Of a stretch of 64,000 bases of DNA, positions 46,435-50,110 are shown in pieces. The DNA lies in the NCBI RefSeq assembly GCF_024628725.1, contig NZ_CP102409.1:1025001-1089000 (forward strand), read 5' to 3'. The notes below the pieces were generated by a model, which worked only from the letters and a program-made list of their open reading frames with translations, was not told the DNA's origin and searched no databases. The DNA comes from Ruegeria sp. YS9. Its GTDB lineage: Bacteria > Pseudomonadota > Alphaproteobacteria > Rhodobacterales > Rhodobacteraceae. Position numbers and translations under genes: made by a program. Positions within the stretch are counted from its first letter, which is position 1, and each line of letters starts with the position of its first letter.

Positions 46435-46435
<1 letters not shown>
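45692..46435 (-). CDS. FG-GAP/VCBS-repeat secreted protein
   Basis: The 247-residue protein has a basic N-terminus and a hydrophobic stretch (GALLSFGLWLTLQPADAAE) that acts as a signal peptide. FG-GAP-like repeats follow, with calcium-loop features (PRLADVTLDGAREAIVVES, PIGAADLDGDGHIEIAYID). Beta-propeller proteins of this type bind ligands or partners outside the cytoplasm; no enzymatic motif is seen. Its ATG overlaps the ferredoxin stop by one base, so they are co-transcribed. Confidence 0.85.
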
Positions 46436-46824
<389 letters not shown>

Positions 46825-46868
46825 TCATTTGCGACTCAGCGCGCCGTGTCTGGACTTTCTTGTCGTTT

Positions 46869-46883
46869 GTTCTATTTTTGTTC
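46869..46883 (+). promoter_or_regulatory. SOS (LexA) box GTTC-N7-GTTC before the DnaE2-tail ORF
   Basis: GTTC TATTTTT GTTC exactly fits the alphaproteobacterial LexA repeat and ends 2 bases before the ATG at 46886. TATGCT at 46885-46890 could serve as the -10, which would favour translation from the in-frame GTG at 46910. Confidence 0.72.
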
Positions 46884-46885
46884 TT

Positions 46886-47278
46886 ATGCTTGTTACACCC
46901 ATTCGCCCTGTGGTTTCAAACCGGGATTGGCCGCGCCCGCCGTCCTGTCTGCCTTCCAGCCAACTGGATTCCCCGCCCGAGGGCGCGCGCGTGGCTGTGG
47001 CCGGGCTTGTGATCCTGCGGCAGAGGCCGGGGACGGCCAAGGGCGTGATCTTTCTGACGCTTGAAGATGAGACCGGGATCGTGAATGTGGTGGTGTGGCG
47101 CAAAATCTACGAACGGTTCCGCCGTGCGGTGATTTCGGGGCGGTTGCTGAAGGTGACGGGCCGGATGCAGCGGGCGCATTCAGTGACCCATGTGATTGCG
47201 GAAGAAATCGAGGATATTTCGGGGATGCTGGATATGCTGGTTCAGGGCGCAGGGGCGGCCTGCCGTGACGGACAATAG
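46886..47278 (+). pseudogene. dnaE2: C-terminal OB-fold of error-prone polymerase DnaE2 (truncated)
   Basis: The 130 residues (from ATG 46886) match only the last tenth of DnaE2/ImuC: ARVAVAGLVILRQRPGTAKGVIFLTLEDETGIVNVVVW, then FRRAVISGRLLKVTGRMQR and THVIAEEIEDIS. This is the OB-fold that follows the polymerase and helix-hairpin-helix domains in a protein of about 1,050-1,100 residues. No polymerase catalytic domain, imuA or imuB is visible nearby. An SOS box stands directly before it, as expected for the promoter of the imuA-imuB-dnaE2 cassette. The likeliest origin is an internal deletion, but an expressed stand-alone OB protein cannot be excluded. Confidence 0.65.
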
Positions 47279-47503
47279 CGAGCGGCTGCCTTGTTGCCTT
47301 GCGCGCAACAAGACCTGTACGCCGATGAATGTCGGTAAGTTTCCGCATATCACGCTGGGTCAAAGGCGCTTTTCCGCCAATTCGGCATTGGTCGGTCGAC
47401 TCTTCGATGCCGTGTTAGTACTGCGGGCATCTCTATGCGTCGGCCTGTGTCTGAACGCAGGCGCGACGGCACGCCACTCAACATCTTCTCAGAGTCAGTT
47501 CAG

Positions 47504-47890
47504 ATGCCTGAAGTAACACGAAATGGATCGTTCGAAAAAACCGTCCAGATGGATGAGAGCCAGATTGCCGGTCGCCTTGGCGAACTGTTGGAGCATACGC
47601 GTTCAAAAGGATACGTGCATACCGCCAGAATGATCGAGGAAGCATTGAGTGCCCACTCTTTCGAGCGCAGACACCTTGGGAACACCCAAAAGTACCTCTC
47701 GGAATTGCAGCGTCTAAAGCGCAAAGAGATGACACGCTTGGTGCGGGAAACGGGTGCGAAGAAGCAGGCGGCTTTTGTCCTGACGCCCCGGATGCGCGTT
47801 GACCACAGAAATCCTGCCGCGCTGCGCAGTGGGGTTTGGAGGAACACCCCGATGCCTTTCCCGGCGGAACCCGAATTCAAGTTTCGCTAG
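47504..47890 (+). CDS. Hypothetical protein, basic, helical
   Basis: The 128-residue ORF (ATG 47504) begins MPEVTRNGSFEKTVQMDES and has a helical centre (IAGRLGELLEHTRSKGYVHTARMIEEALSAH and YLSELQRLKRKEMTRLVRE) and a basic, Pro-rich tail. No family is recognised. The frame is open upstream to 47435, but those codons are not gene-like. The 225 bases before it (47279-47503) hold no recognisable gene. It might be a real small gene; evidence is limited to frame length and composition. Confidence 0.45.
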   Translation: MPEVTRNGSFEKTVQMDESQIAGRLGELLEHTRSKGYVHTARMIEEALSAHSFERRHLGNTQKYLSELQRLKRKEMTRLVRETGAKKQAAFVLTPRMRVDHRNPAALRSGVWRNTPMPFPAEPEFKFR

Positions 47891-48775: not shown

Positions 48776-48787
48776 CATCCCAAAGCT

Positions 48788-48843
48788 ACGTGGCGATTTG
48801 TTACCGGATTGCGGGCCACGCTAAACAACACCGCTAAAAGGTC
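48788..48843 (+). promoter_or_regulatory. SAM-II riboswitch aptamer
   Basis: The H-type pseudoknot core of SAM-II is visible. CGTGGC (48789-48794) pairs with GCCACG (48815-48820). GATTTGTTACCGGATTGC sits between them, and CTAAACAACACCGCTAAAAGG follows, including the invariant GCTAAA. It precedes metZ, the standard SAM-II target in alphaproteobacteria. S-adenosylmethionine binding is expected to lower metZ expression. Confidence 0.9.
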
Positions 48844-48850
48844 AGGATGA

Positions 48851-48886
48851 AAGACCCCTTTCGCTTGGCCGCGTCTGGGGTTTTTT
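48851..48886 (+). terminator. Terminator forming the expression platform of the SAM-II switch
   Basis: AAGACCCC (48851-48858) pairs with GGGGTTTT (48877-48884) with one G-U, and the T-run continues to 48886. The aptamer 3' end (AAAGGTC) can instead pair with GACCCCTTT, so ligand-bound and unbound states could choose between termination and read-through. A CCTCCGCCGGAGG palindrome follows before the metZ ribosome binding site. Confidence 0.65.
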
Positions 48887-48919: not shown

Positions 48920-50110
48920 ATGAGCGAGAACTGGAACAAGCGCACACAAGCCGTCCATGGCGGTATCCGCCGCAGTCAGTACAACGAGGTGAGCGAGGCG
49001 ATTTTCCTGACGCAGGGCTTTGTGTACGAAACTGCCGAACAGGCCGAAGCCCGGTTTCTGGAATGCGGCCCCGATGAGTTCATCTATGCCCGCTATGGCA
49101 ACCCGACCGTGTCTATGTTCGAACAGCGCATCGCGGCCCTTGAAGGTGGCGAGGATGCGTTTGCGACGGCCTCGGGCATGGCGGCGGTCAACGGTGCGCT
49201 GACCTCGATGCTGAAGGCCGGGGACCATGTTGTTTCAGCAAAGGCATTGTTCGGGTCCTGCCTGTATATTCTTGAGAACATCCTGTCCCGATTTGGCGTC
49301 GAAGTGACCTTTGTGGACGGCACGGACCTGAAACAGTGGCAGGCAGCGATCCGCCCGGATACCAAGGCGGTCTTTTTCGAATCGATGTCGAACCCGACAC
49401 TTGAAGTGATCGACATCGCATCCGTGTCCAAGTTAGCCCATGCCGTTGGGGCGATTGTGGTGGTGGACAACGTGTTTTCGACGCCCGTCTTCTCGCGCGC
49501 GATGGAACAGGGCGCGGATGTGGTCGTTTATTCGGCAACCAAGCACATTGACGGGCAGGGCCGTGCGCTGGGCGGTGTGATCATCGGCACCAGGGACTTC
49601 ATCCGCGGAACCGTTGAGCCGTATCTGAAGCATACCGGCGGCGCGCTTAGCCCGTTCAACGCCTGGGTCATGCTCAAAGGTCTGGAAACCATGGCGCTGC
49701 GCGTCAATGCGCAGGCCGACAGCGCGCAAAAGATCGCAGAGGCGCTTGAAGGGCATCCCGCGCTGGAGCGTACCCTTTACCCAGGTTTGAAGACTCACGC
49801 GCAAAATGCTCTGGTTCAATCGCAACTTGGCGGAAAAGGCGGAACCGTATTGTCCCTGGATATCAAGGGCGGCAAGGACGCTGCTTTTGCGTTCCTGAAT
49901 GCGATGACCATTCCTGTGATCTCGAACAATCTGGGCGATGCCAAGTCGATCGCGACGCACCCGGCGACCACCACGCACCAGCGTCTGAGCGATGCGCAGA
50001 AAGACGAGCTTGGCATTACGCCGGGGCTGATCCGTTTTTCCGTTGGCCTGGAAGACGCCGGGGACCTGCTGGCGGACATCCAGCAGGCATTGGAGGCTTC
50101 GCAGAAATAA
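48920..50110 (+). CDS. metZ: O-succinylhomoserine sulfhydrylase
   Basis: MetZ makes homocysteine from O-succinylhomoserine and sulfide with pyridoxal phosphate. The 396-residue protein has the Cys/Met metabolism fold: ARYGNPTVSMFEQRIAALEGGEDAFATASGMAA, ESMSNPTLEVIDI, VVDNVFSTPVF, and the PLP lysine in VYSATKHIDGQGRALGGVI, and it ends with IRFSVGLEDAGDLLADIQQAL. GGGA precedes the ATG. Assignment as MetZ rather than MetB/CysA types rests on overall resemblance and on the SAM-II leader. Confidence 0.93.
   Translation: MSENWNKRTQAVHGGIRRSQYNEVSEAIFLTQGFVYETAEQAEARFLECGPDEFIYARYGNPTVSMFEQRIAALEGGEDAFATASGMAAVNGALTSMLKAGDHVVSAKALFGSCLYILENILSRFGVEVTFVDGTDLKQWQAAIRPDTKAVFFESMSNPTLEVIDIASVSKLAHAVGAIVVVDNVFSTPVFSRAMEQGADVVVYSATKHIDGQGRALGGVIIGTRDFIRGTVEPYLKHTGGALSPFNAWVMLKGLETMALRVNAQADSAQKIAEALEGHPALERTLYPGLKTHAQNALVQSQLGGKGGTVLSLDIKGGKDAAFAFLNAMTIPVISNNLGDAKSIATHPATTTHQRLSDAQKDELGITPGLIRFSVGLEDAGDLLADIQQALEASQK

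Follow-up and report, generated by a model that had tools for sequence, protein, structure and literature searches.

In the fused form of the error-prone C-family polymerase DnaE2 (profile PRK05672), the catalytic core and the C-terminal OB domain are parts of one polypeptide. Other arrangements of its genes and domains have been described: imuA, imuB and imuC are reported to be scattered over the genome, with a separate SOS box for each (PMC3901139), a cassette of Dinoroseobacter shibae is located on a 126-kb plasmid (PMC9426580), and Timinskas et al. (PMC3919608) mention several DnaE2 proteins without an OB domain. With respect to the OB domain itself, that of E. coli Pol III is described to bridge the fingers, thumb and exonuclease and to touch the clamp, and the isolated Pol III OB domain was reported to bind ssDNA (PMC4703070). 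In models of the ImuA-ImuB-DnaE2 complex, PHP and (HhH)2 are given as the main ImuB contacts (PMC12926913); the main text of this 2026 survey contains neither 'OB domain' nor 'OB-fold'. No description of a separate gene for a DnaE2 OB domain was found among the open-licence papers searched, and nothing relevant was found there on Phaeobacter fitness data.

The locus considered here, a small gene in a stretch of 64,000 nucleotides of Ruegeria sp. YS9 (the window), resembles each of these systems in part. As compared to fused DnaE2, core and OB are both homologous, and the imuA- and imuB-like genes of this genome each stand behind an exact box, but core and OB are two polypeptides here, encoded 1.8 Mb apart. 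The dispersed imu loci (PMC3901139) likewise consist of scattered and boxed mutasome genes, whereas in the present case the cut runs through the polymerase, between two of its domains. For the DnaE2 proteins without OB domain, the relevant passages of PMC3919608 do not state that another gene supplies the OB; in this genome a separate gene, with a box of its own, encodes it. The cyanobacterial split-intein DnaE (PMC3901139) is also a C-family polymerase from two distant genes, but the break found here falls between two domains, and no space that could hold an intein was seen. Finally, the SSB family (PF00436) comprises small OB-fold proteins too, whereas the sequence of the free OB is DnaE2-derived. 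Our reading, to which we assign a probability of about three in four, is that the small gene encodes half of a split SOS polymerase, i.e. of a two-polypeptide DnaE2 in which the OB protein would be an SOS-induced subunit acting in trans.

The free OB gene and its putative promoter

The original prediction located a GTTC-N7-GTTC motif 2 nt before a DnaE2-like OB reading frame, which is correct: GTTC-TATTTTT-GTTC (GTTCTATTTTTGTTC) occupies positions 46869-46883 and the ATG starts at 46886, 2 nt behind the box end. The reading frame encodes 130 aa, and its stop codon ends at 47278. The features of the locus are:

46435..46758, minus strand: gene that we take to be 2Fe-2S ferredoxin-like, a divergent, conserved neighbour (homologue at 30/30 family OB loci)
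46851..46856, plus strand: putative -35 element TGGACT, proposed from the position of similar motifs at other free OB loci
46869..46883, plus strand: putative LexA (SOS) box GTTC-TATTTTT-GTTC, from its sequence and its conservation at other OB loci
46873-46878, plus strand: -10-like spacer TATTTT inside the putative LexA box, by resemblance
46886..47278 including stop codon, plus strand: free-standing DnaE2 OB-domain protein of 130 aa (PF01336, PRK05672)
46928..46942, plus strand: WPRPP segment, residues 15-19, a hallmark of the free form
46991..47218, plus strand: OB domain proper, residues 36-111 (PF01336 match; the predicted model, with a pLDDT of 69.6, shows an OB barrel)

The reading frame matches PF01336 in the Pfam profile scan (E 6e-14) and positions 941-1039 of the 1047 positions of PRK05672 (E 3.3e-33); its score of 114.8 bits is below the whole-enzyme cut-off of 939. 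The view that it represents the last 120 residues of DnaE2 is correct in that the homology is to the C-terminal OB domain only, but the RDFH end of fused DnaE2 is absent and the protein has a WPxPP start of its own. None of 106 free OB proteins ends in RDFH, as compared to 33 of 36 fused DnaE2 (conserved in loci L036-L065, L207-L211 and L218), and WPxPP is present in 99/106 of the free and 0/36 of the fused forms. The OB protein is 88% identical to that of a genome from the same genus (G043), and six of its seven best named relatives outside its own genome are from Ruegeria, with identities of 82-89%. Within its own genome no second dnaE2-type OB was found; the next matches had E values of 0.45 (in dnaE1) and 0.91. 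The predicted model is of middling confidence, and fold matches to it support an OB barrel and nothing finer; a PDB sequence search gave nothing useful (best E 0.41).

For proteins of this kind, a database search at E <= 1e-5 gives 5,552 matches of comparable length. The best 120 of these carry annotations such as OB-fold domain-containing, hypothetical and even DNA-directed RNA polymerase, and some are entered as single-strand DNA-binding protein. Membership of the SSB family was considered and rejected, the score against PF00436 being 16.4 bits at a cut-off of 26.

On its count, the box would be weak and unremarkable. The window contains 6 copies of GTTCN7GTTC vs 2.1 expected, and 3/100 shuffles reach 6; the 4.30-Mb genome contains 194 exact copies vs 115 of the reversed pattern, and the AT-rich form GTTCWWWWWWNGTTC is not enriched genome-wide (4 vs 4 for the reversed control). 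It rises above chance because it is conserved beside OB starts across relatives. A box adjoins the OB start at 30/30 family loci and at 76/80 named loci, two overlapping sets in which the 106 box-bearing free OB genes correspond to 98 unique ones, whereas in the control only 3 of 738 mechanically listed reading frames (>=150 aa, named loci) had a box within 60 nt upstream. Of the four named loci lacking it, L128 starts at a contig edge, and none was seen at L140, L147 and L156. The OB gene of G083 has no exact box either, and its ferredoxin neighbour is absent within an 8-kb stretch. The claim that a lone DnaE2 OB gene follows immediately on an SOS box of the alphaproteobacterial type is supported. 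The form of the box, GTTC-N7-GTTC or GAAC-N7-GAAC, is common to lexA and the imu genes, and makes the OB gene a candidate member of the LexA regulon.

When the first in-frame start codon behind the box is taken as the start of the gene, its distance from the box is no more than 5 nt in 89/98 unique free OB genes, and in 79/98 a TTGN or TGGAC motif begins 18 nt ahead of the box. The promoter consensus of the 98 unique genes is GTTCTATnTTTGTTC-tc-ATG. With a -10-like element within the putative LexA box and the start codon some 7 nt behind it, this layout suggests that the OB transcript is leaderless.

A DnaE2 core without OB domain in the same genome

A search for imuA, imuB and dnaE2 in this genome, as had been proposed, was successful in so far as imuA-like and imuB-like genes and a dnaE2 core are all present, but the dnaE2 has no OB domain and the genes are dispersed. 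The DnaE2 protein has 972 aa and is encoded on the same contig as the OB gene, at the distance of 1.8 Mb. Its residues 2-961 align with positions 6-938 of the 1047 positions of PRK05672 at 1222 bits, which is above the cut-off of 939, and profile scans detect the Pol3, finger and HhH domains without an OB match. The C-terminus, ..LSLRAHPVALLRHLLTPGQRDNTTSVT, corresponds to the core/OB junction, where fused relatives continue into the OB domain. Residues D410, D412 and D562, presumably the catalytic ones, vary little or not at all among 75 cores.

Some 4 kb separate the core from the imuB-like gene beyond it, and the imuA-like gene is located near 1.23 Mb, the presence of both having been established for this genome only. 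The ImuA-like reading frame matches NF033429 (30.6 bits, E 2.9e-07) under the cut-off of 150 for that family; the ImuB-like one matches the Y-family profile PF00817 (E 1.6e-19), and its homologues adjoin fused dnaE2 genes. Exact boxes precede lexA, imuA and imuB, whereas the box upstream of the core, GAACAAAACGTGAAT, is one base off. In a set of 30 split cores, a box within one mismatch was present in the 200 nt upstream in all 30, and 29 of these read GAACAAAA; shuffled upstream regions gave 3.9/30 on average and 9 at most. The imuA-like gene has a 15-mer box that is identical to that of the OB gene. The original prediction saw the layout as fitting a fusion of the cassette promoter to the OB gene. 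Capture of this promoter is not evident: the two boxes have opposite orientations, and the start codon is 16 nt from the box of the imuA-like gene vs 2 nt for the OB gene.

Distribution of split core and free OB

The 198 sampled genomes of the family were classified by hand from search listings, and all exceptions were retained. Among the matches listed, 82 genomes have a split core and a free OB, 6 a split core without free OB, 2 a free OB without dnaE2 core and 108 neither. The Fisher p value for this table is 1.4e-45 among the matches listed, but it is overstated because related genomes are not independent, the two genes being co-inherited in one clade, and one or two changes suffice on the tree. 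Expressed per dnaE2 type, again among the matches listed, a free OB accompanies 81/87 split-only and 0/88 fused-only dnaE2 genomes; G035 has both a split and a fused dnaE2. Ten genomes with fragmentary genes were assigned by hand, five as split (G098, G142, G061, G068, G158) and five as fused (G155, G078, G095, G091, G021). For 27 fused assignments no OB match was listed, and these are based on a dnaE2 profile match that reaches at least position 1039 (26 genomes) or on a 736-aa frame (G022). OB matches at the contig ends of G178 and G009 were counted as pieces of fused genes.

In G162, G180 and G142, three of the six split genomes in which no OB was found among the matches listed, the ferredoxin neighbour was likewise not found there; in G044 the ferredoxin found is only a 44% paralogue. 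In G098 the contig starts inside the ferredoxin gene, and in G064 it stops 225 nt past this gene, with no box or OB start in between. These 225 nt (L219:1819-2043) contain, at the contig end, the start of a reading frame that we assume may be a transposase. The OB gene could have been displaced or lost at this locus, and true loss may have occurred in some of the six. The genomes with a free OB and no core are G118 (84% complete) and G051 (100% complete). The latter has an intact OB gene with box and ferredoxin neighbour (L214:2950-3500, L187) in a complete genome without dnaE2, so that an OB may persist or work without a core; this may speak for a separate role of the OB or for recent loss of the core.

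Neighbourhood and origin of the split

A ferredoxin homologue is near the OB gene at 30/30 family loci. At the 80 named loci it is on the opposite strand in 77 and within 600 nt in 74, and both box and ferredoxin neighbour are common to the divergent AT-rich OB members of G033, G172 and G090. We regard the ferredoxin-like gene as a marker of the locus and do not think that it belongs to the system. The surroundings of the core differ: imuB was found in the fetched flanks of 29/30 fused dnaE2 loci (in L060 on the other side of dnaE2) vs 2/30 split cores, which are mostly away from imuB.

When a tree is built from 75 cores, of which 39 are split and 36 fused, two changes are required to explain the split label. 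A second, more careful tree contained 30 cores, 45 having been dropped, four for long branches and the rest for thinning. In this tree 20 of the 21 split cores form one clade (support 100/99), G194 being outside, and a single origin of the split was not rejected (p-AU 0.278). The locus of G194 (L199:2148-6867) consists of the core, a reversed dimethylargininase-like gene (NF045658, E 5.1e-57, under its cut-off) and the OB gene. This OB, which is not part of the 106-gene set, has both WPRPP and a box, and is the only free OB that retains the RDFH end. It looks like a transitional stage, a snapshot of the split.

A search of 385 genomes of the class Alphaproteobacteria for further splits placed nearly all listed matches outside the family in long frames. 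Among the matches listed, frames of <700 aa occur in G380, G485, G488, G425, G268, G578, G257, G356, G392 and G496; the majority of these frames are close to the beginning of a contig. The frame of G496, one of these ten, was opened and rejected as a split, since it is a decayed cassette.

Possible role and alternative explanations

In the original prediction, the layout was considered to fit a deletion that left either an SOS-induced protein or a scar. The gene is indeed a short, partial relative of a large one, but its interpretation as a decaying fragment of a deleted cassette is now very improbable. The rest of DnaE2 is present in the same genome and ends at the junction, and among the matches listed core and free OB occur together in 82/198 family genomes, with a free OB in 84/198. 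Stop codons in sister strains, which had been suggested as an argument against a functional gene, are absent, with no internal stop in any of the 106 free OB genes (98 unique). The proposed comparison of orthologues yielded dN/dS values of 0.08-0.45 in 36 Ruegeria pairs, which points to purifying selection; for all 3,983 free OB pairs with 0.2 < dS < 1.5 the median is 0.31, with saturation likely. The conservation of promoter and start position also contradicts decay, and we conclude that the small OB gene is probably not a leftover scar.

An intein-joined split DnaE exists in cyanobacteria (PMC3901139), and core and OB could in principle be religated to one chain by trans-splicing in the same way. 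We consider this hardly credible: no room was seen for intein halves, as the 39 split cores examined end about 100 residues or less past the last HP motif, mostly far sooner, and about 5 to 35 residues precede WPxPP in the free OB proteins. In addition, Pfam and NCBIfam scans of the core and OB of this genome show no intein.

More serious, though still unlikely, is the explanation that the OB is an independent SOS-induced protein that binds ssDNA or the clamp and acts on the replisome, for example by helping to displace Pol III, with the truncated DnaE2 working alone. It agrees with the retention of OB and box in G051, with the ssDNA binding and clamp contact described for Pol III OB domains (PMC4703070), and with DnaE2 proteins that are said to have no OB at all (PMC3919608). 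An added function would not, however, be expected to be missing from all 88 fused-only genomes, as the free OB is among the matches listed, whereas this is expected if it replaces the fused domain. Evolutionary distances provide a weak test: over 22 genomes OB and core show a modest correlation, with r 0.50 and a partial r of 0.48 when ferredoxin is taken into account, vs r 0.16 for OB-ferredoxin, with r 0.37 for ferredoxin-core, and this lends weak support to a two-part enzyme.

A large bacterial group appears to make its error-prone polymerase as two separate proteins. In the proposed mechanism, dnaE2 would have broken between catalytic core and C-terminal OB domain in a large clade of the family, such that the core gene now ends in ..HPxxLLRxxLTP and a short variable tail, and the OB became a gene of its own, which in most cases adjoins a ferredoxin gene, has a separate LexA-type box and encodes a protein with a WPRPP start and no RDFH. 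Upon DNA damage, inactivation of LexA would induce core and OB along with imuA and imuB. The OB protein would then associate in trans, without a covalent bond, with the core or else with the clamp or ImuB, restoring the role that the covalent OB has in other DnaE2 enzymes. ImuB is modelled to be contacted mainly by PHP and (HhH)2 (PMC12926913), so that an OB acting in trans would not have to interfere with these contacts. Somewhat less confidently, but still as the probable course, we envisage that this C-family translesion polymerase now consists of two polypeptides with the OB as a dissociable subunit under a separately tuned SOS promoter, the OB supply setting assembly, and that the split occurred once or twice and has persisted in roughly four of every ten sampled genera of the family. 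The basis in hand consists of homology, split architecture, co-occurrence, conserved boxes, synteny and purifying selection; LexA binding, induction, the leaderless start, protein association and the role in translesion synthesis are what we infer.

If true, this would explain the truncated-looking DnaE2 proteins in a large bacterial group, and it would give a testable role to many proteins that are now called OB-fold domain-containing, hypothetical or DNA-directed RNA polymerase. Since the OB is genetically separable here, the disputed role of the C-family OB domain (ssDNA binding versus clamp contact) becomes open to deletion and complementation.

Other observations

Two further loci with boxes were observed. 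At L068:1620-1986 (G000:C1 near 2,840,119) a 109-aa reading frame follows the box GTTCTATTTATGTTC; it has no Pfam or NCBIfam match and is a candidate for an as yet unknown SOS gene. The same 15-mer occurs in reversed form at L076:1501-2475 (G000:C5 near 24,920), before a small reading frame that is followed by a gene of the SRAP family (PF02586, 3.9e-54). In the window, a 151-aa reading frame without convincing Pfam or NCBIfam match lies downstream of the OB gene (47435-47890), and a SAM_alpha riboswitch (RF00521, 57.2 bits) at 48780-48857 precedes a reading frame at 48920 that we take to encode a sulfhydrylase.
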